A stretch of DNA of 45,260 bases from a virus, in the IMG/VR virus record IMGVR_UViG_3300014325_000022, positions 1 through 45,260 of that record; one strand, 5' to 3'. The notes below the pieces were generated by a model. That model ran no database searches. It was not told where the DNA came from and saw nothing but the letters and a program-made list of their open reading frames with translations. Every line of letters begins with the position of its first letter. Position 1 is the stretch's first letter. Below are positions 10,332 through 45,260 of this stretch, piece after piece. Position numbers and translations under genes: made by a program.

Positions 10332-10526
10332 CTATTTCTCTAAATAGTTGTAAATAACTTTAAACATAATTAATGAAAATAATATAAACAGTATAATGGG
10401 AAGAGCAACAATAATTATTCTATCAAAAATTCCCATTTCTTCTTCGAATTGTCGATAAGATTTTAATTCTTCTTTTTCCTTTTGCTCTTCTTCTATTTTT
10501 TTCTTTATTTTATTTATGTTTTTCAT
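10332..10526 (-). CDS. Small single-span membrane protein, first late gene
   Basis: 64 residues: a Lys/Glu-rich coil (KKKIEEEQKEKEELKSY) followed by one strong membrane segment at residues ~36-58 (IIIVALPIILFILFSLIMFKV). It is tail-anchored with a short polar C-terminus. It is the first gene of the minus-strand region. It could be a lysis or membrane-takeover protein, but nothing specific supports that. The ribosome site is weak (GAG before ATG). Confidence 0.55.
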   Translation of the reverse strand: MKNINKIKKKIEEEQKEKEELKSYRQFEEEMGIFDRIIIVALPIILFILFSLIMFKVIYNYLEK

Positions 10527-18240: not shown

Positions 18241-18501
18241 ATGAGAACAGAATACAACGAGGGTGATTTACTCACAAAAGAAGATATTGGATTAGTATTT
18301 AAAGGCAAGAATGGTAAAAAATGGAGGATAATAAATTTTTTACTCCATAAAGAAAGTTATCCTTTCATTGGTCTTAGTGATTGTGGGAGCCTTATGATGG
18401 GTTTTAGCCTGCATGGGATAGCTCAATTTTCTACCTACGAACTAGTCTCCTTCGTCGGCCCCTATTTTACCGAAGATAAGAAGGAATTACCGAATGTCTG
18501 A
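18241..18501 (+). CDS. SH3-like small protein, paralogue 1
   Basis: 86 residues. MRTEYNEGDLLTKEDIGLVF, KNGKKWRIINF, then ELVSFVGPYFTED. The same layout (start MRT..., G..W.vv in the middle, LVSFVG..FTE at the end) recurs in the next two genes, at 22434, and at 26970. It is probably a small beta-barrel. Function unknown. AGGAG upstream. Confidence 0.65.
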   Translation: MRTEYNEGDLLTKEDIGLVFKGKNGKKWRIINFLLHKESYPFIGLSDCGSLMMGFSLHGIAQFSTYELVSFVGPYFTEDKKELPNV

Positions 18502-18781
18502 ATACAAACATAAACTTTTAGATTTAGCTTGGAGAAATAAAATGAGAACATCATACACAGAAGGCGAATTGCTTACGAAAGACGATGTTGGACTAGTATT
18601 TAGGGCTAGAGATGGACAACAGTGGAAAGTAGTTTGTGTTAGCTCAGAAGGGCACGTATTAGCGTTAAATGAAAAAAATGATGATTATAATAGACTTTAT
18701 AGTGACGGAAAATTATCTGCGACGGATAAAATTTTTGATGAAGATTTAGTCTCCTTCGTCGGCTCAGAATTTACCGAATGA
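18494..18781 (+). CDS. SH3-like small protein, paralogue 2
   Basis: 95 residues from ATG 18494. The part homologous to paralogue 1 begins at an internal ATG, 18542 (MRTSYTEGELLTKDDVGLVF), which has GGAG at the right distance and may be the main start. The preceding 16 codons (MSEYKHKLLDLAWRNK) copy the start of the gene at 18998, so this is a fusion of two duplicated pieces. It ends LVSFVGSEFTE. Confidence 0.65.
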   Translation: MSEYKHKLLDLAWRNKMRTSYTEGELLTKDDVGLVFRARDGQQWKVVCVSSEGHVLALNEKNDDYNRLYSDGKLSATDKIFDEDLVSFVGSEFTE

Positions 18782-19005
18782 AAATTGAATTAAATAAAGT
18801 TTATTTTGATGCAAAAGGTGAACAGTGGAAAGTTGTGGCTATATTACCCATTCATTTATATTTTAACTATATAGTTATAAATAAAAGTCAAAATAAATGT
18901 AATCATATAACAGAAAGCGGTAAGGTCAATATGGTAGAATTACATGATAATGATTTGATTAAATTAGTAGGCGACAATTTTACAGAGGAAAAAATAGGTG
19001 ACTGA
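18778..19005 (+). CDS. SH3-like small protein, paralogue 3
   Basis: 75 residues: MKIELNKVYFDAKGEQWKVV, then DNDLIKLVGDNFTEEKIGD. Same family as the two preceding genes and closest to the N-terminal half of 26970-27512 (MKLELNKVYIDRNGIQYKV). ATGA junction with paralogue 2. Confidence 0.65.
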   Translation: MKIELNKVYFDAKGEQWKVVAILPIHLYFNYIVINKSQNKCNHITESGKVNMVELHDNDLIKLVGDNFTEEKIGD

Positions 19006-19244: not shown

Positions 19245-19355
19245 ATGAATTTTATAGATATTTTATATGGTTTATCCATGTTATTATTCGCAACTTCATT
19301 GTTTATATTATTATTATTTAATATAAACTTACGTAAGAAAAGAAAGCTATATTGA
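19245..19355 (+). CDS. 36-residue membrane protein
   Basis: MNFIDILYGLSMLLF, continuing through LFILLLFNI to a basic RKKRKLY tail: a single hydrophobic span with positive-inside C-terminus. AGGAGG lies just upstream of the ATG, a strong ribosome site. It could be a small holin-like or regulatory membrane peptide; it lies 0.7 kb before the lysozyme gene. Function is not determinable. Confidence 0.6.
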   Translation: MNFIDILYGLSMLLFATSLFILLLFNINLRKKRKLY

Positions 19356-19577: not shown

Positions 19578-19939
19578 ACTTTACCGATTTTGATCGCGAA
19601 CAGAATGAAATTATAAAAAAATATGTTATTGATCCAGATTTCTTAAATATATCAGAAAAATTTTTTATTAAAAAAGAAGAATTTTATTTTGTTGATAAAC
19701 ATTCGCTTGCTATTAATGAAAAATTTTGTTTTGATTCTATTGATGAAGCAAAAAATAAATTTGTAGAAATAATACAATTAAAAATAAATGATCTTAATTA
19801 TGCAATAACAAAATATGAGTTTTTGCAATATAGAGTAAAAAATTCTATAGACCCTTTGTATTTAAAAGATACAATAATAAAATATTTATCGTCTATAGAA
19901 ATTTTATTAAAAAATACATTGGGAATTGATGATGAATAG
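19574..19939 (+). CDS. Small protein, unknown
   Basis: 121 residues, very AT-rich gene, with alternating Phe/Lys/Asp and a helical C-terminus (YLKDTIIKYLSSIEILLKN). Not recognised. Its TAG stop overlaps the lysozyme start. Confidence 0.55.
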   Translation: MNFTDFDREQNEIIKKYVIDPDFLNISEKFFIKKEEFYFVDKHSLAINEKFCFDSIDEAKNKFVEIIQLKINDLNYAITKYEFLQYRVKNSIDPLYLKDTIIKYLSSIEILLKNTLGIDDE

Positions 19940-20423
19940 CGAAGACAAAATCATAGAACTCCTCAAAAAACAGTCTGAAGGGGTCAAATTGGAGAGTTTC
20001 AAGGACCCGGATGGGTTGATGTGCATCGGCATCAATCTCGTTCAATATTATCCAAATGGAGCCATTATTCGCGAGCATGACACATGTACAGAGCAACAAG
20101 CCTTAGATTGGACCAAAAAAAAGCTTTTCAAAAAAGTCTATCCTGATGTTGAGGATTTTTGCCGGAGGCATCGTGTTCGGAATGAAATTTATGAATCTAT
20201 GTGTGTTTTTGCTTATAATGAGGGATCTCAGTGCATAAAAACAGTTCCCTTCATCGTATGTCTAGTAAATAAGCGTTGGTATGATTTAGCAAGAATAATG
20301 ATAGGTAATATCCACTACAAGGACCCATTCTACTATTCTGAAAATCAGTTAAGAAAAAGAAGAATTGAGATTGATAATTTTAAACACTTAGATGAAAGGA
20401 TAGAACATGATTTTTTATCTTAA
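19932..20423 (+). CDS. GH24 (T4-type) lysozyme-like endolysin
   Basis: 163 residues from ATG 19932 (GGGA seven bases upstream; ATG 19929 is also possible). Spacing of the GH24 triad is exact: E16 (SEGVKLESF), eight residues, D25 (FKDPDG), five residues, but position 31 is Cys (MCIGIN) where T4-type enzymes have Thr. Further family marks are AYNEGS in the middle and QLRKRRIEIDNF near the end. It would cut peptidoglycan at lysis; the Thr-to-Cys change could alter activity. No signal peptide. It is placed among early small genes rather than with late genes, which is unusual. Confidence 0.75.
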   Translation: MNSEDKIIELLKKQSEGVKLESFKDPDGLMCIGINLVQYYPNGAIIREHDTCTEQQALDWTKKKLFKKVYPDVEDFCRRHRVRNEIYESMCVFAYNEGSQCIKTVPFIVCLVNKRWYDLARIMIGNIHYKDPFYYSENQLRKRRIEIDNFKHLDERIEHDFLS

Positions 20424-20670
20424 TATATTTATTATTATATTTTATTTTTTGCTATTATTTTTCTTTATATGGTTAGGAAAGAAAAATTATGAAATAATAT
20501 ATTTATCATTATCATTGAATGGAAAAGTCACTTTATATGGTCTTAATCAAAGAAAACATAAACCATTTTGTTCCCGGCAAAATGATGGCACTGAATGGTT
20601 CCTATCAAAAACCCAAAAAGAGATTGGACCCGGAAATTTTTTACTTGAATTTAGGAGGAAAAAAATATGA
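20407..20670 (+). CDS. Membrane protein fused to a baseplate J fragment
   Basis: 87 residues. Residues 1-25 are one hydrophobic segment (MIFYLNIFIIIFYFLLLFFF). Residues ~38-82 match a piece of this phage's own baseplate J protein: KVTLYGLNQ, then GTEWFLSKTQKEIGPG and EFRR here, against EVTLYGLDQ, GNQWFLQTTQNNIGPG and SFRA there (J residues 105-148). It overlaps the lysozyme end by 17 bases, with AAGGA upstream. Its position suggests a lysis role such as holin, but the attached fragment argues for a chimeric or decaying gene. Confidence 0.6.
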   Translation: MIFYLNIFIIIFYFLLLFFFIWLGKKNYEIIYLSLSLNGKVTLYGLNQRKHKPFCSRQNDGTEWFLSKTQKEIGPGNFLLEFRRKKI

Positions 20671-21068
20671 TATGCCCATGCTGCGGTTCCACTTCAATAG
20701 AAACTAAAGAAATTAAAAAAGTCATGGAAAATGATATTTTTTCTCACGCTATTTTATTACCAACTCTAGTTATTAATATCACATCAAATAAATGCTTACA
20801 ATGTAGTGAAATCGGAGATTTTGAAAACAGAAATTCAGAAATATTAGAAAAAGCAAAAATATATATTCGTGAGAAATCAATGAGTAATTTTTTTATACGT
20901 CTTGATAATGAATGTATAAAATTAACCTATGTTGCTAGAAAATTAGGCTTGCCAATGAACATATTGCAGACAATAAGAGACAAAAATGACTATTCAGACA
21001 CAGCATATTCAATAATTAGAATGGTTTTTATGCTAGAAAATATTTGGGGGGTTAAACGTGAAATTTAA
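20667..21068 (+). CDS. MqsA/YgiT-like zinc protein
   Basis: 133 residues. The N-terminal zinc site MICPCCGSTS (C3, C6) pairs with KCLQCSEIGD (about 43-52), the YgiT/MqsA arrangement. A helical C-terminal part follows (TYVARKLGLPMNILQTIRDK), HTH-like as in antitoxins of this family. No toxin partner is evident beside it, so it could act alone as a regulator or as a decoy antitoxin against a host MqsR-type toxin. That role is inference. Confidence 0.6.
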   Translation: MICPCCGSTSIETKEIKKVMENDIFSHAILLPTLVINITSNKCLQCSEIGDFENRNSEILEKAKIYIREKSMSNFFIRLDNECIKLTYVARKLGLPMNILQTIRDKNDYSDTAYSIIRMVFMLENIWGVKREI

Positions 21069-22437: not shown

Positions 22438-22646
22438 AATTTGAAGTTGGTCAAAAAATTAAACTACGTAATGGCGAATGTTTAATAGTTATGTCTGTTA
22501 ATCTAGATTCAATCACGCCAGTATCCTTAAAATTTTTGGATGGATCATTTGCAGGTTCTTATTTTCCGAATGGTAAATTTAATTCTACCAATGACATTTC
22601 TCAGTTTGATATCGTAGAAATAATTGAAGAGGACTTAGATAAATGA
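22434..22646 (+). CDS. SH3-like small protein, paralogue 4
   Basis: 70 residues: MKFEVGQKIKLRNGECLIVM, then GKFNSTNDISQFDIVEIIEE. Diverged member of the small-protein family at 18241-19005: a short barrel with a G-rich turn and a final acidic strand. Function unknown. Confidence 0.55.
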   Translation: MKFEVGQKIKLRNGECLIVMSVNLDSITPVSLKFLDGSFAGSYFPNGKFNSTNDISQFDIVEIIEEDLDK

Positions 22647-26969: not shown

Positions 26970-27512
26970 ATGAAACTAGAACTTAATAAAGTTTACATAG
27001 ATAGAAATGGAATACAATATAAAGTTTTTTGTATTATTGAATCTTTAATACATGATGATGAACTTTATCCATTTGTTTGTACTACAAAATGTCAAAATAA
27101 TATAATTAGATATACAAGCAAAGGAATTTCTGAACATAATAAACTCTCAGCAGGAAGCGATAATTTAATCGAACTCGTCGGTGATGATTTTACTGATAAT
27201 AAAGAAGAATCATATCTTGTTAATAATGAAGGAATTGATGTATTATCGGAAAATGTAATATCTATTTACGATAAATTTATTTATAGTTTTCATATTGCAG
27301 ATGATGAATATAATTATTGTTGGTTGGACTTTATAAAACTAGATAAAGATTCTGATATGAATAAATATCCAAAATTCGAAGAATCCGAAATGGAGCACAT
27401 ATTTAGGATATGTTTTCAATCGATGAAAGAAATAGACAATATGATTGATGTGATTGAAAAAATAAAATCAAGATATAAAAACAAACTATATTATGATAAT
27501 TATAAAAAATAG
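26970..27512 (+). CDS. SH3-like paralogue 5 with extra C-terminal domain
   Basis: 180 residues. Residues 1-75 match paralogue 3 at 18778: MKLELNKVYIDRNGIQYKVF, then LIELVGDDFTDNKEE. Residues ~85-180 are a second acidic helical domain (YDKFIYSFHIADDEYNYCWL, MEHIFRICFQSMKEIDNMID). The bases coding TDNKE reappear just after the stop (about 27519-27533), another small duplication. Confidence 0.6.
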   Translation: MKLELNKVYIDRNGIQYKVFCIIESLIHDDELYPFVCTTKCQNNIIRYTSKGISEHNKLSAGSDNLIELVGDDFTDNKEESYLVNNEGIDVLSENVISIYDKFIYSFHIADDEYNYCWLDFIKLDKDSDMNKYPKFEESEMEHIFRICFQSMKEIDNMIDVIEKIKSRYKNKLYYDNYKK

Positions 27513-27950: not shown

Positions 27951-28372
27951 ATAATATACAAAAAGATGATGAAGATTTATATGTTATTAAATTTTGGGTA
28001 AAATTAATTTTAATTATTATATTTATAATATCTTTCATAATAACATTATGGCTTATAATTGGACCAAAATATGATATATGGGAACAGGAACAATCTGGAA
28101 AAGCTGAATTGTCAAAAGCAGAATCTACTCGTCGAATAACTGTTTTAGAAGCACAGGCAAAACTTGATTCTGCTAAATTACTTGGACAAGCTGAAATTGA
28201 AAGAGCAAAAGGTGTTGCTCAAGCAAATAAGATTATTGGTGATAGCCTTAAAGATAATGAATCATATTTGCATTATCTATGGATAAATAACATGACAAAT
28301 ACAGGAAAAGAGACTGTTTATATTCCAACAGAAGCTAATCTTCCAATTTTGGAAGCCGGGAGACATAAATGA
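27947..28372 (+). CDS. SPFH/stomatin-like membrane protein fragment
   Basis: 141 residues. One long membrane span at ~16-39 (FWVKLILIIIFIISFIITLW), then a charged helix resembling the coil of SPFH proteins (AESTRRITVLEAQAKLDSAK, QAEIERAKGVAQANKIIGDS), then YLHYLWINNM and VYIPTEANLPILEAGR. The whole beta-rich SPFH core is absent. The same short form occurs in other phages. It may oligomerise in the inner membrane; function unknown. Confidence 0.65.
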   Translation: MNNIQKDDEDLYVIKFWVKLILIIIFIISFIITLWLIIGPKYDIWEQEQSGKAELSKAESTRRITVLEAQAKLDSAKLLGQAEIERAKGVAQANKIIGDSLKDNESYLHYLWINNMTNTGKETVYIPTEANLPILEAGRHK

Positions 28373-28551
28373 AAAAATTAATTGAATTTGTCAAGAATAT
28401 ATTTAAAAGAAAGCCAAAATTTTCAGCCGAAATTGGTGAGTATAAAATTATTTGTAAAAAACCTCCAAAATATATAATGATCTCTATGGATGGAGGGGGC
28501 GGAGGATCTGGAGGATTTGATGATTATGATTCCAAAGGAAATAAAAAATGA
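28369..28551 (+). CDS. Small protein with Gly-rich tail
   Basis: 60 residues: basic N-terminus (KKLIEFVKNIFKRKPKF), then KPPKYIMISMDGGGGGSGGF and DDYDSKGNKK. The DNA coding the Gly-rich tail is repeated at 29153-29232 in another reading frame. Function unknown. Confidence 0.55.
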   Translation: MKKLIEFVKNIFKRKPKFSAEIGEYKIICKKPPKYIMISMDGGGGGSGGFDDYDSKGNKK

Positions 28552-28911: not shown

Positions 28912-29234
28912 TTAATATTGACTCAGATTTTCTAGAACTCATTGGACTTGATAAATACGAGTTATATGATTTATTTTTATCATCAAAAAATGAAGATGAT
29001 TTTATTAAAAAACTTGAAATTAATAAATGTGTTGATCAAATTAGTTATCCTAAATCAGCATTTTTTAATAGACAAGATGTTGATCAAATAAAAAGAGAAT
29101 TAATATTAGAAACAATAAAACAATGTGAAGATATTTATTATTATTTTACACAGGGGGTGGAGGATCTGGAGGATTTCATGATTATGATTCCAAAGGAAAT
29201 AAAAATGAAGAAACGAATCAAGAAGAAAAATTAG
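28908..29234 (+). CDS. Small protein MINI family, copy 2, with overprinted tail
   Basis: 108 residues. Residues 1-75 match the protein at 26602. The C-terminal ~28 residues (QGVEDLEDFMIMIPKEIKMK, KRIKKKN) come from reading the duplicated Gly-rich/MKKRIKKK DNA in a shifted frame, so a new tail was created by duplication. Confidence 0.6.
   Translation: MINIDSDFLELIGLDKYELYDLFLSSKNEDDFIKKLEINKCVDQISYPKSAFFNRQDVDQIKRELILETIKQCEDIYYYFTQGVEDLEDFMIMIPKEIKMKKRIKKKN
29153..29232 (+). repeat. ~80-bp direct repeat, copy 2
   Basis: Copy of 28495-28574. Includes a third MKKRIKKK start (ATG at 29205) that ends after nine codons. Confidence 0.85.
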
Positions 29235-30078: not shown

Positions 30079-30112
30079 AAAACCCCTCGAAATTAAAATT
30101 TGAGGGGTTTTT
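30079..30112. terminator. Bidirectional terminator at the convergence point
   Basis: AAAACCCCTC (30079-30088), 13 bases, GAGGGGTTTT (30102-30111) and further T: a ten-pair stem with U-tracts in both readings. It separates the plus-strand genes ending at 30011 from the minus-strand late genes ending at 30136. Confidence 0.9.
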
Positions 30113-30135: not shown

Positions 30136-32028
30136 TTAAAACCATTCGGTAATAACTAATCCACCTGCGTCCCCGTCGCCACCATCTGTACCGCCTGTTC
30201 CCCCTGTGCCGCCGACGCCTTTGTCCCCGACCACATAATCTATTGTTATGGGTAGTAAAATAAGGTTATTTATCCATGCGCCACCACCACCACCTAAACC
30301 GGCGTTTACAAGGGTTTGGGTATCAGTATCTATAGCAATTGGTGCCCCCGATCCTCCCGATCCAGTTCCTGCCACTCCTCGACATTTATCCGGGTCTACG
30401 TCTGAAGTTCCACCCCCTGCAAATATTCCTGCACCACCAGCGCCACCGGGAAAATATAGATTAATGCGTAGAGGATCAGAAAAACCAGCTAGAAATGCGC
30501 CTCCTGATTCATTTCCCGATTGTCCATTGGCTGCGCTACCCGGATTTGAAGCAGGAATTCCTGCCACGCTTAGTGCGCCTCCCTCGCCTTTAGCGGTGGT
30601 GCCCCCTTTTCCGCCACCTAATGTGATATTAATACCCTCTCCTGAGTTTATAAGCGTCGTCTCTGTGCCATCCGTTCCGTATTGGGTAGGTGTAAAAGAG
30701 TTTGCAATAGACGCAGAACCACCTCCACCCCCACCCCAGGCTTGAATTGAAATATATTTTACAGAGGGGTCACTGGGGGTATATGTGCCGGTATCTCCTG
30801 GCGCAAAGACATACGATATTGGGAATGTATAGCTGCTAATCGCTGATTGCACGAATTCAGCTGTTACAATTTGAGTCGTATTTGTTCCAGGCGGAGGAGT
30901 TGGGGCTGTAGGTGTTCCTGTGAATGCTGGGCTATCTAAAGAGGCAGCATCGGTTACATCTGAAACATCATAATCATCCGCCATTGGTACTGCTGCTGGT
31001 GTTGTTCTGCCGTTAAAACTGACTAAACCGGGCGCAGACGAATTTATTGCCCATTTTGCAGGATCTTGACCTGGATTATCAACAAGTGCAGTGATTTGAT
31101 CACCGACATCTACATGTTGTGTATCAACTAAATCCAGTGATTCTGGCAAATCTCCAGCGACACTAATTATCCAATATTGGCCGGCTACAATCGGATTTCC
31201 GAATTGATCTGTGGTCGGAAATGTTCCGCCGCTCGCATCCCAGACTCCCTGAAATAAATTTCCACCCTGAGAATCATACATATTACTCGGAACATTGAGG
31301 ATAACACGAAATAATTGTCCGCCTGCCGTCGCTTGATCAAATGCTTCTCCGATAATTGGCAGACCAGAATTTCCCTCTGCTTGTCTAACTCCTGACGCAA
31401 TATTTGGATCTAAAATAACCATCGATCCGCGAACAATAGCCGCCGTCGAATAAAGCCAAATACACGTTTGAGTTCTTGCTATTTCACAACGCATTCCCGC
31501 TGTAAAAGAAGGAGATTTTTGATCATAAACGATATATCCATTGGGCATATCTGTGCCGGCTGAGACAATTGTTGGTATGCCGTAAGGAGAATTCACAAAT
31601 TTAATCGGCTGTCCGGGATATAATGGCGTGGATTGTGAAGCATCAACCTGCGCTGCGACTACATTTTTTGGCCCTTGTTGTAAATCAGTTTGCCCCAAAA
31701 TTGCTGACATCGCAAGTTGGTTCATGCTCTGTGACGCCGGCAATGTCGTCATCGTGAATGCCGCAGATTCTACTGTAGATGTTGTTGCGTCAGTATAAAC
31801 AACCTTGTAAAAATAAGTGGTATTTGGTATCAATCCACCGTCATTTAAAATCAATCCAGTGGCATTTGGTATGATATTTCCTGCGCCTGGCGTGAATGAT
31901 GCATCGGTTGTAGATCTATACCACTGCTGTGTGTACGGCGCTGTGCCGCCACTTGCTGATGTTGTTGATAATTTTGCGCCATTTGATCCGGCTGAGATTA
32001 ATGATAAAATTCCTGCTGTTAAAACCAT
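30136..32028 (-). CDS. Tail fibre: Ig-like, paralogue of the head protein, glycine-rich tip
   Basis: 630 residues. 1-95: Ig/FN3-like (GGTAPYTQQWYR). 96-250: module with YPGQPIKFVN, GYIVYDQK, AFDQATAGGQLFRV; together 1-250 are homologous to the capsid-side protein at 1354-2115. About 250-345: a segment with QGVWDASGGTFPTTDQ and YWIISVAGD. About 350-400: tail-fibre linker SLDSPAFTGTPTAPTPPPGT and IVTAEFVQSAI. 400-630: Gly-rich domain (QAWGGGGGGSAS, several GG runs) ending LVITEWF, likely the receptor-binding tip. It is the last late gene, before the terminator. Confidence 0.8.
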   Translation of the reverse strand: MVLTAGILSLISAGSNGAKLSTTSASGGTAPYTQQWYRSTTDASFTPGAGNIIPNATGLILNDGGLIPNTTYFYKVVYTDATTSTVESAAFTMTTLPASQSMNQLAMSAILGQTDLQQGPKNVVAAQVDASQSTPLYPGQPIKFVNSPYGIPTIVSAGTDMPNGYIVYDQKSPSFTAGMRCEIARTQTCIWLYSTAAIVRGSMVILDPNIASGVRQAEGNSGLPIIGEAFDQATAGGQLFRVILNVPSNMYDSQGGNLFQGVWDASGGTFPTTDQFGNPIVAGQYWIISVAGDLPESLDLVDTQHVDVGDQITALVDNPGQDPAKWAINSSAPGLVSFNGRTTPAAVPMADDYDVSDVTDAASLDSPAFTGTPTAPTPPPGTNTTQIVTAEFVQSAISSYTFPISYVFAPGDTGTYTPSDPSVKYISIQAWGGGGGGSASIANSFTPTQYGTDGTETTLINSGEGINITLGGGKGGTTAKGEGGALSVAGIPASNPGSAANGQSGNESGGAFLAGFSDPLRINLYFPGGAGGAGIFAGGGTSDVDPDKCRGVAGTGSGGSGAPIAIDTDTQTLVNAGLGGGGGAWINNLILLPITIDYVVGDKGVGGTGGTGGTDGGDGDAGGLVITEWF

Positions 32029-32049: not shown

Positions 32050-33117
32050 TTATTGGTAATATTCGTCAATAATTATTGTACCGTTTGCTCCCGGACCGCC
32101 ATCCCTTCCGCCAACGCCACCTGCTGTGCCCCCGTTTCCGCCTGCTCCGATTGTAAATGCTATGATACTAAGTGGATTTATTATAATAAAATCCGACCAA
32201 CCTGCTCCTCCTCCTCCGCCTCCCGAGATAAATCCAGCAGAGTTCCCGCTAATGCTGCCCCCTCCCCCGCCTGCGCCTGAATTTTGTATGGCTGATGAAC
32301 CCGCAGAGTCTATTAATGCTACGCCTGCGCCAGAAAATAAACTTTGGCCGCCTTGTCCGCCCGGAATATCACAAGTGAGTGCAGCACCAAAATTAAACCC
32401 CATTCCGGGATTTCCTTTCTGTCCTGCATATGCAACACCCGTGATTGGTATAGAAGAGGCACCTCCGTCTCCTCCGTTTCCAGCTGTGCCTACTCCTCCT
32501 GCTGGTGCCCCCTTCCCTCCACTAGCTATATATGATGATGTTAAAAATGTAGTATCACCCCCATCAGATCCTGCTGTTCCGGCAGAAAAAGAAGAGCCCC
32601 CGCCGCCGCCGCCGCCGCCGCACATTCGGACACGAAGATATAATGGTTTTTGCGGTCCTGTTGGCGTGTATGTTCCAGCTCCTGGCGTCGTAAATATTTG
32701 TTGAGTTGGAGCAACAAGGGCTGTTGATTGCCAATCAGAAGGACTACTCGCCGGATTATTATTTGTATTTGAATCGATTAATGAATAGTACTGAACACTT
32801 CCCACCTTGCAAATATCATTTTCATTATATGTCGTACCCGCATCCCATTCAGGAATTCCTCTCGTAAAAATATATGCTAATTGTTGCGTCATTAATCTTA
32901 AAAGCGAATTAAAATCTTGAATAGTGGGGCTATATGCGCCTCCAACACCATCGTACATCCCCCCTTCAAAATTAGATAATTCTTGAATAATGGTAGGATC
33001 AATTGTTGCTCCAGAATATAATTCCGGAGTGCTTAAAAATGACCCATACTTTGACATTTGATTTGATCCTGCACTCGATCCAAATATTTTTTGCGTATAT
33101 CTATTTAATCCTGCCAT
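32050..33117 (-). CDS. Glycine-rich receptor-binding tail fibre
   Basis: 355 residues. N-terminal attachment part ~1-90 (QELSNFEGGMYDG, FTRGIPEWDAGTTYNENDIC). About 83-130 resembles a CBM5/12-type module (Y.E.D...GSVQYYSL, then NTNNNPASSPSDWQ). 135-355 is Gly-rich (RVRMCGGGGGGGGSS and more), ending IIIDEYYQ, like the tip of the neighbouring fibre. Probably contacts the host surface. A Pro-rich frame on the opposite strand is a shadow of this sequence. Confidence 0.75.
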   Translation of the reverse strand: MAGLNRYTQKIFGSSAGSNQMSKYGSFLSTPELYSGATIDPTIIQELSNFEGGMYDGVGGAYSPTIQDFNSLLRLMTQQLAYIFTRGIPEWDAGTTYNENDICKVGSVQYYSLIDSNTNNNPASSPSDWQSTALVAPTQQIFTTPGAGTYTPTGPQKPLYLRVRMCGGGGGGGGSSFSAGTAGSDGGDTTFLTSSYIASGGKGAPAGGVGTAGNGGDGGASSIPITGVAYAGQKGNPGMGFNFGAALTCDIPGGQGGQSLFSGAGVALIDSAGSSAIQNSGAGGGGGSISGNSAGFISGGGGGGAGWSDFIIINPLSIIAFTIGAGGNGGTAGGVGGRDGGPGANGTIIIDEYYQ

Positions 33118-33125
33118 ATTTACCT

Positions 33126-34043
33126 CTAAATAAAATCACCATATTGTAAAAATATCCAATTACTATCAAAATCTTCATATCTATTAAATGGTTTATTTCC
33201 TGATGGAATTCCTCCATTTTCATATGTGCTAAATCCAAAAAATTGGTCCACAACTGGCGGAATAATTGTATTATAACCAACTGCCATCGGTACAGGAAGC
33301 AATCCTTCTTCAATTATTGCAATAAAAACATCCTTACTGCCAATTGAAGAACCAAATATAAAACTCACATACATTGTTTTATAATCTGTAATAATGAAAT
33401 CACCTGGAAAAAATTGATTGAAAATATTTTCTGCATTAGCAAGAGAAGTCCCTGCATTATTTCTAGAAATTGCGAATTTTATTAATACTCTAAACTCATC
33501 ATCATCTAAAAATATTGTCCTTGTTTTTGTTACTACTGTTCTTTTTACGCCGGTATATTTTCCTAAAATATCGAGCTGAACTCCAATAGCAGTTTCTAAA
33601 TCAAAAGCATTTTGAACAGCTAAAGGCAAAATTAAATCTGTTTCTGTTATCGTTATTTTTGTAGATGGATTTAAATTATTGCTTGAAACAGTCAGTAATT
33701 TTGCGATATTTATGACGCCTAAAAACAATACTGTCAGCCCATCGGTTATGCTCCCTCCAACAATTACTTGTGATAAATCAGGAATTGCTTGTAAAATAGC
33801 AGTAATATCTTCTGCATTGTCATTCCAATTTATCGCTGCCGAGTCGACTCCATCATAATTTAAAACGAATGTACCCGATGAGGGATTAGGAGAAAATGTA
33901 ATTAATTGAGTTGAAGTTTGCGGCATTAAAAGAGGAGCAGTAATTGCTAGAATTGTGTTAAATGCTTTCGGTTTTCCCACATACTGAAGAATCAATAGTT
34001 TTGCATAATATTCATTTAATTCTCGCGTGCTTTCTGTTGCCAT
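33126..34043 (-). CDS. Baseplate-fibre adaptor (DUF2612-like) with inserted module
   Basis: 305 residues. The start (ELNEYYAKLLILQYVGKPKA) and the part after ~137 (FDLETAIGVQLDILGKYTGV, then a RVLIKFAI segment) resemble DUF2612-type proteins, which take the place of P2 gpI in linking baseplate and fibres. Residues ~46-136 are an inserted module (SGTFVLNYDGVDSAAINWND) found also in the sheath and baseplate J proteins. Family name is from pattern memory. Confidence 0.65.
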   Translation of the reverse strand: MATESTRELNEYYAKLLILQYVGKPKAFNTILAITAPLLMPQTSTQLITFSPNPSSGTFVLNYDGVDSAAINWNDNAEDITAILQAIPDLSQVIVGGSITDGLTVLFLGVINIAKLLTVSSNNLNPSTKITITETDLILPLAVQNAFDLETAIGVQLDILGKYTGVKRTVVTKTRTIFLDDDEFRVLIKFAISRNNAGTSLANAENIFNQFFPGDFIITDYKTMYVSFIFGSSIGSKDVFIAIIEEGLLPVPMAVGYNTIIPPVVDQFFGFSTYENGGIPSGNKPFNRYEDFDSNWIFLQYGDFI

Positions 34044-34050
34044 GAAATCC

Positions 34051-35877
34051 TCAACTTACTGTGATATTTGCTGTTGCCATATTTCCAAATGAATCTGTGA
34101 CTTTTGCGACATCCGTCGCAGGCGTCGCGCCGGAGCTATATGCACCCGTAGAAGCGTTTATTGACCCGCCAGATGGATTTGATTGCATCGAATATGTCAA
34201 TGTACCGTAGCCGCCAAGTCCTGTGAAAATTTGGGCATTTGACGTTGAAATAGGGACACTGACAGAAGTCGGAGATAAAACCATCGGCAAAATTATGATT
34301 TTATCTGCGCTGACAACTAGATAGTTTTTCTTTGTACTTGGCGCTAGAATGTTTTGATAACCCTCGTTAAATGAGAATGCGATCGCTGCAGGGGCGCTTG
34401 TTTGAAGCGAATTGCTTTTTACTGTGATTAAACCAAGGGCAGATGTTACGCCGAGCGCAATTGTCAGGGTTTGCCCTGCGATGGTTCCTGTCACCACGGC
34501 CGCGCTTAATCCTGCCAATGCACGCAGTTTTGACTGAATTGTCGCTGTACTATCATTCCAATTTATCGCCGCTGTATCGTTTCCATTGTAAGAAAATTCA
34601 AAGGTGCCACTTGCTGCCACACCGCTTAATGTCGCTATTTGAGTAAGCGCCAGGCTTAAGCCCGCATTTGTTATCAAAGTGTTTGGATCTGCTTGTTGGG
34701 CTATACATGCAACTTGGTTTATATTTGCTTCATCATCTACGCCCAGGACATAATTATTTACGAGTGCGGTTATAATTCCCGCGATATTTGGCGGATTAAC
34801 TCCATTAATTGACGTTGCCGTAAAAGAAATAAACATGTTTTGTGCCATAGCATTATCATAATTAACTGTGAATATTGTGCCATCTTTTTGCGTCACATTA
34901 TAAGATGTGTCGCCTTTCATGCCACAGCCAAGGTTTCTGTAAAAATAAATTTCCATTGCTACCGGGTCATATATACCCCAATTTGTTGAATCAGTTGCAG
35001 GATTATTGTTTAAATTATTATCTTTCCAAGAGATATAATTTGTATTTCCAATGGAAACTAATTGTCCATATGAATAGCTAATTGTGGATGACCACGACAA
35101 AAATGGCCCTACATTCGACGCTCCCTGCACAATTACCCAGATTGAATGGTCTGGAATACCATCTCCATCTGTTGCATTTGTTTTATTTTCGTAAACAAAT
35201 GCGGATGAAATTCCGTTTATATTTCTCAATGCTGCGCGCAGAGCTATCGCTTGGCCTTGGGATGGCATTGCAACCGAAATTTGTCGTCTTATTCTTAATT
35301 CTGCATCAGATTCTTCATTTATTCCGCGCACTGTTTGTGCAGTGGGATTATTAACAGAGACAACGCCGAGTACCACGGTTGACATCACCGTAATCGTATT
35401 TATTTGCGTTACATTCGCTCCAGGCGTTGCAGCTCTGAAAGAGGCTACCGTCGTTCCGGGCCCAATATTGTTTTGAGTTGTTTGTAAAAACCATTGATTT
35501 CCAATGTTATCTGCGACTGTATATACTGGATTTTCTGCTTGATCTAAACCGTATAGCGTGACTTCTTGCGAGGTCACAATCGTAATATTTGTGATTGAAA
35601 AAGTTCCTGCTTGTCTTTCCACGCCATTAATTGCGCATCTTTGATCAAGTGGAACTCCTATCGCTAAATCAGGATCGAATGAATTATATATGGATTGCAT
35701 CAATAGCAGCATATCTATTTGAGTTTGAACATCAATATTAATACGCTGTCCATCTCTTGTATTAGATGATAAATCAATATCAGGACTATAAATTTTCTGC
35801 ATAGCAGCAATTTCATTTGCTAATAATTCTGGCTGTGTTGATATCGTTAATCCTGTTGCATCTAAAATGTTTGGCAT
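34051..35877 (-). CDS. Baseplate J-like protein with three extra modules
   Basis: 608 residues, longer than usual. Core baseplate wedge J: 1-100 (DGQRINIDVQTQID, LAIGVPLDQRCAINGVERQAG), 165-255 (RGINEESDAELRIRRQISVA, GISSAFVYENKTNATDGDGIPDHSIWVIV), 305-415. Inserted or added parts: CBM5/12-like 261-303 (SWSSTISYSYGQLVSIGNTN, NNNPATDSTNW); shared module 415-505 (SGTFEFSYNGNDTAAINWND); C-terminal Ig-like 537-608 (GGYGTLTYS, GGSINASTGAYSSG). It joins wedges in the baseplate of contractile tails. Confidence 0.85.
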   Translation of the reverse strand: MPNILDATGLTISTQPELLANEIAAMQKIYSPDIDLSSNTRDGQRINIDVQTQIDMLLLMQSIYNSFDPDLAIGVPLDQRCAINGVERQAGTFSITNITIVTSQEVTLYGLDQAENPVYTVADNIGNQWFLQTTQNNIGPGTTVASFRAATPGANVTQINTITVMSTVVLGVVSVNNPTAQTVRGINEESDAELRIRRQISVAMPSQGQAIALRAALRNINGISSAFVYENKTNATDGDGIPDHSIWVIVQGASNVGPFLSWSSTISYSYGQLVSIGNTNYISWKDNNLNNNPATDSTNWGIYDPVAMEIYFYRNLGCGMKGDTSYNVTQKDGTIFTVNYDNAMAQNMFISFTATSINGVNPPNIAGIITALVNNYVLGVDDEANINQVACIAQQADPNTLITNAGLSLALTQIATLSGVAASGTFEFSYNGNDTAAINWNDSTATIQSKLRALAGLSAAVVTGTIAGQTLTIALGVTSALGLITVKSNSLQTSAPAAIAFSFNEGYQNILAPSTKKNYLVVSADKIIILPMVLSPTSVSVPISTSNAQIFTGLGGYGTLTYSMQSNPSGGSINASTGAYSSGATPATDVAKVTDSFGNMATANITVS

Positions 35878-41626: not shown

Positions 41627-43369
41627 TTACGGATTTACAAAAACCAGAACATCACTTTTTTGTATTGCTCCGGCCTCTTTTATTGCGATTTGACAAAGTG
41701 GCGCAATTCTAGTGATTCTATCAGCAGCAAATTGTTTAGAAATTGGCGTAGAATATATATAATAACCAAATTGAGCGATATTTTGTAAGAACAATAATTG
41801 ATTTCCAAATGTTGATGAACTTGTCCATGATCCCGGTGCGACATATTGATTTGTAACGGCTTGTTCACAGACTGTCCCATAAGCATTTTTAAGCCCATCC
41901 ATGCCGGCTTCTGTTTGCGGCACTTTTGTTGCTGATTGTGCTAAATAATTAAATCCTGCGACTTGTAGAGCTCCCACAAACCATTCTAGGTTATAAACCT
42001 GGTCAAAATATTGGTTTGCGCCCGATGTGAAGACGCAGGGATCGCCTTGAATTGAAACATAACAATCCGCACCAGCAGCTTGAGCAAGATCGAGGATTGT
42101 TTGCGTCATTGTTGGATCTGGTTGAATACCACGCAATGTTTTTAAATGCATTGTCATCGTAGTATTTGAGCCTGAGAAATTTACAGAGAGTGCAAGTCCC
42201 ATGTAAGCGGCCATCATTAAAACAGCATTTAAACCGTTATTTGATGAGTCTCCATAGTATAATCCGCGTGAATTATTGAAAGACCCTGATTGCAATAAAT
42301 CGATTTTTCCACCTGGTTGAATATCTGCGCTTTGATAAGATGCAAACGCACCAATAATATTTCTTGGAAGAGTAATTGCAGCGGCTGCAAGCATATCTGT
42401 TTGACCGATTACTGCTAATGTTTCTGTTGGCATGACTCCAAAATATTGAACAAGCCCGTTAGTTCTAGCAAGAGTTTCTCCGTAAGTTTCTCCCGTAACT
42501 GTTTGGACAATAGTGATCGTAATTGCGGCCGGAGCAGAACTTTGAAGAGAAGATGTTGCCGTTAATGCAAGTGCATTTCCGTATACACCATTGAATATTA
42601 CCGTTAATAATTCATTTGCTATTGAGCCTGTTACAACAACCCCCTCAAGACCCGGAACTGCCCGTAAAGCTGTTTGAATATCGCTTATAGTTGCATTCCA
42701 ACTTATCGCTGCTGTATCATGTCCGTTATAGTGAATGACAAAAGTTCCACTCGCTGCAACCGCAGAAAATGTTAGTGTCTGTTGAGAAACATTTCTTAAA
42801 AGTGCAATAAATTGTCCGTTACCATTTAAAATATTTGGTTGTTGAGAGAACACGGCTTCTGCCATCAAAAATGTGCGGCTGCTTGTGCCAAAATCAATTC
42901 CCACTTGCTGAGGATCATTATAAAGTGCATATCCTAATGCTTCTCCAGACCATCCGGTTGAGAGAGTTTTTGATGTGATTGTGATGTCCACGCTACCAGC
43001 CGTTTCTAGCGTATTTGTTGGCGTGGTAGGTATTGGAATTGCGCCAAATTGCCCCGGCTGCGTTAGCGTCAAAGCTTTAGATGCGATTGAGCCAGTGACA
43101 ACGACATTGCTAAACCCAGAGAGCGCATTAATAATCGCCTGAATTGCTGCCGCCGTAGCATTATATGCAATTGATGTCGTCGTTAAATCCCCAAATTTTA
43201 AAGTAAAGGCACCTGAGCCTGCCACATCACTAAAATCAATTTCAATAGATGCAGCCAAGACAGGTTCGCCCGTCACAACCGCTAAATTCGAAGTGTTATA
43301 TGAATTTAAACCTCTATTCATCGCCGCAACTGAGATACTAATTACATTGTTAATCGATAATGCTGTCAT
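41627..43369 (-). CDS. Tail sheath protein (DUF3383) with two inserted modules
   Basis: 580 residues. DUF3383 marks: SINNVISISVAAMNRGLNSY at 5-24, TSNLAVVTGEPV, STGWSGEALGYALYNDPQQV (about 137-156), then GQTDMLAAAAITLPRNIIGA and a LDLAQAAGADCYVSIQGDPC region. Two copies of the shared ~90-residue module are inserted at ~38-138 (SGAFTLKFGDLTTTSIAYN) and ~198-290 (SGTFVIHYNGHDTAAISWN), explaining the large size. Contracts to drive the tube into the host. Confidence 0.85.
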   Translation of the reverse strand: MTALSINNVISISVAAMNRGLNSYNTSNLAVVTGEPVLAASIEIDFSDVAGSGAFTLKFGDLTTTSIAYNATAAAIQAIINALSGFSNVVVTGSIASKALTLTQPGQFGAIPIPTTPTNTLETAGSVDITITSKTLSTGWSGEALGYALYNDPQQVGIDFGTSSRTFLMAEAVFSQQPNILNGNGQFIALLRNVSQQTLTFSAVAASGTFVIHYNGHDTAAISWNATISDIQTALRAVPGLEGVVVTGSIANELLTVIFNGVYGNALALTATSSLQSSAPAAITITIVQTVTGETYGETLARTNGLVQYFGVMPTETLAVIGQTDMLAAAAITLPRNIIGAFASYQSADIQPGGKIDLLQSGSFNNSRGLYYGDSSNNGLNAVLMMAAYMGLALSVNFSGSNTTMTMHLKTLRGIQPDPTMTQTILDLAQAAGADCYVSIQGDPCVFTSGANQYFDQVYNLEWFVGALQVAGFNYLAQSATKVPQTEAGMDGLKNAYGTVCEQAVTNQYVAPGSWTSSSTFGNQLLFLQNIAQFGYYIYSTPISKQFAADRITRIAPLCQIAIKEAGAIQKSDVLVFVNP

Positions 43370-45058: not shown

Positions 45059-45260
45059 TTACGGATGTGTATGTCCAGGTACAGTAAACATTTGGCCAAT
45101 TAATTGTGGTAACAATAATTCCAAATATTTCGCTCCGTATCGTGTTTGCGTCAACATCGCAAAACTTGGAAAATCAAGAATTCTTTGTGGAATAGAGTAA
45201 CCGCTGCTTACATTTCCCACCGATTTATTTGTCTCCAGCCAATTATACCTGCCAGCAACC
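45059..45260 (-). CDS. DUF4054 head-tail adaptor, C-terminal half (cut by window edge)
   Basis: Sixty-six codons reading in from the right edge: VAGRYNWLETNKSVGNVSSG, then YSIPQRILDFPSFAMLTQTR and YGAKYLELLLPQLIGQMFTV, ending PGHTHP. The KSVG.VS.GY.IP and YG.KYL elements are those of the DUF4054 C-terminus. It continues the N-terminal half at 1-211; the frames need 1+3k missing bases between the window ends. Confidence 0.85.
   Translation of the reverse strand, partial: VAGRYNWLETNKSVGNVSSGYSIPQRILDFPSFAMLTQTRYGAKYLELLLPQLIGQMFTVPGHTHP

Follow-up and report, generated by a model that had tools for sequence, protein, structure and literature searches.

Directly downstream of the lysozyme gene in the accessory operon of this phage (the window comprises 45,260 nucleotides) lies a short open reading frame (ORF) in which a hydrophobic segment is joined to a diverged fragment of the phage's own baseplate wedge protein J (Table 1). 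A preliminary description had placed this ORF exactly, in position and length, while its statement that the ORF directly follows the lysozyme understates the case, as 17 nt are shared by both genes. At the other end, the stop codon overlaps the start of the downstream gene as ATGA. The accessory operon, which extends from 12.4 to 22.6 kb, is tightly packed: 28 of its 31 junctions measure 20 nt or less, with a median of -4 (a 4-nt overlap), and without the ORF a gap of 243 nt would remain, unusual there. Given its overlap with both neighbours in such an operon, the ORF can with high probability be regarded as a genuine chimeric ORFan gene, presumably translated. The homology to J ends at the AGGAGG ribosome site of the downstream gene, so that the last residues of the product (RRKKI) are shaped by the neighbour's site.

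Table 1. Features of the chimeric gene, its neighbours and its source in J
Feature	Position	Strand	Basis
36-aa single-transmembrane peptide, possible holin or lysis partner	19245..19355	+	read from sequence
Phage GH24 lysozyme lacking a signal peptide, upstream operon partner	19932..20423	+	PF00959 2.2e-8
Chimeric ORF (hydrophobic anchor and J-barrel fragment, 87 aa)	20407..20670	+	ATG start, AAAGGA upstream
Predicted single transmembrane helix, codons 5-23, followed by KK	20419..20475	+	Kyte-Doolittle; AlphaFold2 helix 5-23 (low confidence there)
Diverged copy of J residues 93-149, ORF codons 28-84	20488..20658	+	blastp, tblastn, HMM and fold matches
End of J homology, AGGAGG ribosome site and ATGA start of the downstream gene	20650..20670	+	sequence TTTAGGAGGAAAAAAATATGA
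Downstream operon gene, 133 aa, weak zinc-ribbon/Lar-like N-terminus	20667..21068	+	PF14354 E 0.14, below cut-off
Baseplate wedge protein J, full length, 608 aa	34051..35877	-	PF04865 E 7.1e-9; PHROG baseplate wedge phrog_6 8.6e-33
Source segment in J, residues 93-149	35431..35601	-	tblastn E 2.8e-10

The hydrophobic N-terminus that had been noted at the outset is borne out by a 19-residue Kyte-Doolittle mean of 2.77 at residues 5-23. By the positive-inside rule, the sequence suggests a product oriented N-out, C-in, with the two lysines after the helix pointing to a cytoplasmic location of the J part. Most likely, the gene encodes a single-span inner-membrane protein with a J-type barrel facing the cytoplasm, both the topology and the folding being predicted.

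A tblastn search of the phage genome with the ORF as query returned, besides the ORF itself, a single place, located inside J on the other strand and about 15 kb away (37%). With blastp, residues 28-83 of the ORF aligned to residues 93-148 of J with 37.5% identity over 56 residues (E 1e-10), and an HMM of five J proteins, built without the ORF, found it at 9.3e-10, pairing ORF residues 28-84 with J residues 93-149 in a single ungapped block. The match first described, to J residues 105-148, therefore holds as homology, but its extent does not, the segment being somewhat longer (J 93-149). When profiles of the structural genes were run against all 139 accessory ORFs, this ORF was the sole significant match (32 bits, 2.8e-10), against a best score of 12 bits among 2,780 shuffled ORFs. 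At the sequence level, these searches confirm that the resemblance to J is real and not due to chance. That it arose by chance or convergence, for example as a single beta-propeller blade, can practically be dismissed: virginiamycin B lyase, a propeller, does match ORF residues 22-74 (phmmer, E 0.013) and Pfam Vgb_lyase gives E 0.29, but we rejected a Vgb identity: the propeller match reaches 18.9 bits, far below the 32-48 bits for J, the J match is ungapped, is recovered by independent profiles and includes residues invariant in J, and a single blade alone is not expected to fold.

Among solved structures, the one closest to J in sequence is gp16, a baseplate wedge protein of 404 residues (7kh1, E 9e-26), which from its name and length we take to be gp16 of phage XM1. 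Three domains are described for XM1 gp16 (PMC10457771): a helical core bundle, a dimerisation domain and, as an insert at residues 87-178, a wing-like domain lying over an inner protein of the baseplate. With the limits taken from this protein (PMC10457771), the copied J segment corresponds to the first two thirds, approximately, of the inserted barrel or "wing" domain, and the last third is missing. Compared with the Baseplate_J/wedge family (PF04865, with P2 J, Mu gp47, T4 gp6 and XM1 gp16), the ORF is thus homologous over the first part of the barrel and has gained a membrane anchor, but is devoid of the N-terminal helical core-bundle domain (J residues 1-92), of the remainder of the barrel and of the C-terminal dimerisation domain. 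Furthermore, Baseplate_J genes lie in the tail operon, while the ORF lies outside it, in the accessory operon on the opposite strand.

An AlphaFold2 model of the ORF showed a strand-rich domain at residues 31-80 (pLDDT 83-87), and its best fold matches were Baseplate_J proteins, including those of the phage Mu and E217 baseplates, at E values above 0.001. The alignment behind this model consisted of J segments from the window and from viral-contig loci only, so that the model is not independent support for the assignment; a model of full-length J (pLDDT 51) was too poor for use. Because the last third of the barrel is missing, the copy may not fold.

The fusion was found nowhere else. The preliminary description had proposed to look for it in other phages, and no second case appeared in IMG/VR (single-sequence and alignment scans), in 50,697 phage records (INPHARED phages were searched by tblastn with the ORF) or in GTDB genomes. 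All other matches to the ORF were J genes; the six from the IMG/VR alignment scan were J, either complete or truncated at the edge of a contig, and related contigs checked singly, including one of 44 kb, matched in J alone. Synteny searches with the lysozyme, the downstream gene and another accessory gene as bait returned nothing, and for neither the lysozyme nor the genes immediately next to it was a homologue found in the relatives. Absence from all relatives, together with frame-disrupting variation, had been put forward as the mark of a chance fragment; the absence holds among the records searched, and the ORF exists as one copy.

The phage is close to the phiPLPE-type dwarf myoviruses, in which the structural half of the genome is conserved and the other half variable (PMC3391216), and the ORF sits in the variable half. 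Bdellovibrio phage phi1422, of the same group, is alike in genome size and in its combination of a conserved structural and a variable accessory module; the J homologue of the group stands at 36-40%, while phi1422 has no counterpart of the ORF, with no match at the threshold used for the related contigs. The contig itself is probably a near-complete permuted genome. Its ends (1-211 and 45059-45260) seemingly carry parts of one gene, and the homologue in a related contig spans both, although the joined ends give no single clean frame. A strong terminator-like stem (30079-30111) separates the converging accessory and tail operons.

Several other segments recur in this genome. A Hoc-like gene for head decoration (1354-2115, - strand), located next to the capsid gene, is 58% identical to the N-terminal 253 residues of a tail-fibre-like gene (30136-32028, - strand); one relative has three copies of this segment, and a head fibre whose tips can be exchanged is a possible reading. 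A domain with the motif YNG.DTAAINWN is common to J, a DUF2612 protein (33126-34043) and a 580-residue protein (41627-43369), all on the - strand and at 30-46% identity, and this sharing is domain exchange between virion genes. On the + strand, the accessory operon holds a diverging tandem paralogue family (18241-19005 and 26970-27512, with a remnant near 22641), and a 54-nt stretch is duplicated at 96% identity 658 bp apart (28494-28547 and 29152-29205), the second copy being in another frame. A 60-residue ORF (28369-28551, + strand), in which a Gly-rich stretch resembles the likewise Gly-rich tail fibre (32050-33117), was considered as a second fragment of a structural gene and rejected: its matches (blastp 3e-4, HMM 0.002) were not clearly above those of shuffled sequences.

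The way in which the copy has diverged from J speaks for selection on the protein. Nucleotide identity between the two at codon positions 1, 2 and 3 is 0.42, 0.58 and 0.49, so about half of the positions differ, without the usual excess of differences at the third. Amino acid identity is about 36%, compared with roughly 20% from neutral decay. Of the 20 identical residues, no more than 8 keep the same codon (12 use a different one), and selection at the protein level, rather than recent copying, therefore explains the identity. The copy has kept 10 of 15 positions that are invariant across six J proteins, as opposed to 10 of 37 elsewhere (Fisher P 0.0098). In simulations of neutral decay to the same DNA identity, which start from present-day J with an assumed base composition and serve as a rough guide of modest power for an ORF known as a single copy, a stop-free frame persisted in 2.3% of 20,000 runs, and 0 of 20,000 kept both the frame and the observed amino acid identity.

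At the same time, the copy has evolved fast. Its dN is 0.74, against 0.21 for J compared with J at similar dS (about 3.5 times faster), and dN/dS is about 0.56 between copy and J and 0.17 between Js, with dS near saturation. In a tree, its branch measures 1.4-1.6 changes per site, and its placement among the Js received bootstraps of 57, 30 and 18. Selection has held some positions of the copy and left the rest free, which looks like a repurposed domain. Of the three options that had been offered for the gene, debris is consequently disfavoured, since neutral decay would almost always lose the frame or the identity: the frame is intact and coupled on both sides, and residues invariant in J have been kept despite synonymous change.

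As for function, the context points to lysis. The lysozyme begins with MNSEDKIIELL, a hydrophilic N-terminus without a signal or SAR sequence, and with no export signal it needs a holin. (Its E-8-D-5-C departs from the E-8-D-5-T usual in GH24 enzymes.) Direct coupling to such a lysozyme makes lysis the likeliest job of the ORF, a tentative guess from context to which we give a probability of about 0.4. The J segment would have been copied from the structural operon into the accessory one, where it lies inverted and behind a hydrophobic anchor, and the product would act as a holin, or as the partner of one, its cytoplasmic domain being the barrel derived from J. The ORF is the sole single-span protein overlapping the lysozyme, and several features expected of a holin are present: a small size, one transmembrane segment and an adjacent endolysin without export signal. 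Judged from the sequence, a holin with a recruited domain would be the best fit to this context among the three options first proposed.

Single-span holins and lysis accessory proteins likewise are small, have one transmembrane segment and a basic C-terminus, and overlap the lysozyme gene. Unlike them, the ORF matches no holin, antiholin or spanin family in Pfam or PHROGs, and it carries a virion-derived domain. Its predicted orientation is also opposite to that of T4-type single-span holins, which are not N-out/C-in. Alternative holin candidates in the genome are the 36-residue transmembrane peptide of Table 1 and the ORFs at 10332, 27947 and 29769.

Nearly as likely as a role in lysis, though doubtful in itself, is that the gene is a relic with little function, born of a chance fusion and kept open for a time by its position between coupled genes, in which only the anchor or the act of translation (through coupling to the downstream gene) matters. 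Such an origin would agree with a fusion known once only and absent from all relatives found, with a truncated domain on a long branch, with the higher dN/dS against J (about 0.56) than between Js (0.17), and with an accessory region rich in duplications, some of them out of frame. However, an open frame combined with retained J-invariant positions is unlikely under neutrality, and the homology runs through 57 codons without gaps.

A further and rather unlikely possibility is that the protein acts as a decoy in tail assembly, in which the anchored barrel would bind the baseplate partner of J (the protein covered by the wing) and block or delay baseplate assembly, either that of a competitor or, early on, that of the phage itself. 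A dominant-negative membrane fragment, as the preliminary description had suggested, is compatible with the anatomy of the product, given its predicted cytoplasmic C-terminus: baseplates assemble in the cytoplasm, the barrel residues are under constraint, and the homologous insert of XM1 gp16 (87-178) lies over an inner protein of the baseplate (PMC10457771). Small proteins of mobile elements that stop tail assembly are known, namely Tab, Tai and Rta (PMC10884400, PMC11364771, PMC12987554), and the ORF could be, like them, a small accessory protein acting on tail assembly; but in the sections of these sources cited here they are not described as tail-protein fragments, let alone membrane-anchored ones. 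Moreover, a blocker of the phage's own baseplate would be self-harming unless timing or divergence protects it, the segment is only 37% like J, and no integrase was seen in the phage, so that there is no clear prophage state in which a decoy could act. The ORF had no match in PADLOC-DB 2023.

Very improbable, finally, is a gating of lysis timing by tail assembly, in which free wedge partners would bind the barrel and hold a holin-type protein inactive until their depletion into tails releases lysis.

Taken globally, the locus clearly shows a phage turning part of its own virion into a new accessory gene. Should the barrel have retained its binding to baseplate partners, the gene would provide either a tail decoy of the phage's own making or a connection of lysis with tail assembly; we found neither in the literature searched. 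If the barrel binds none, the gene still documents how phage ORFan genes originate.
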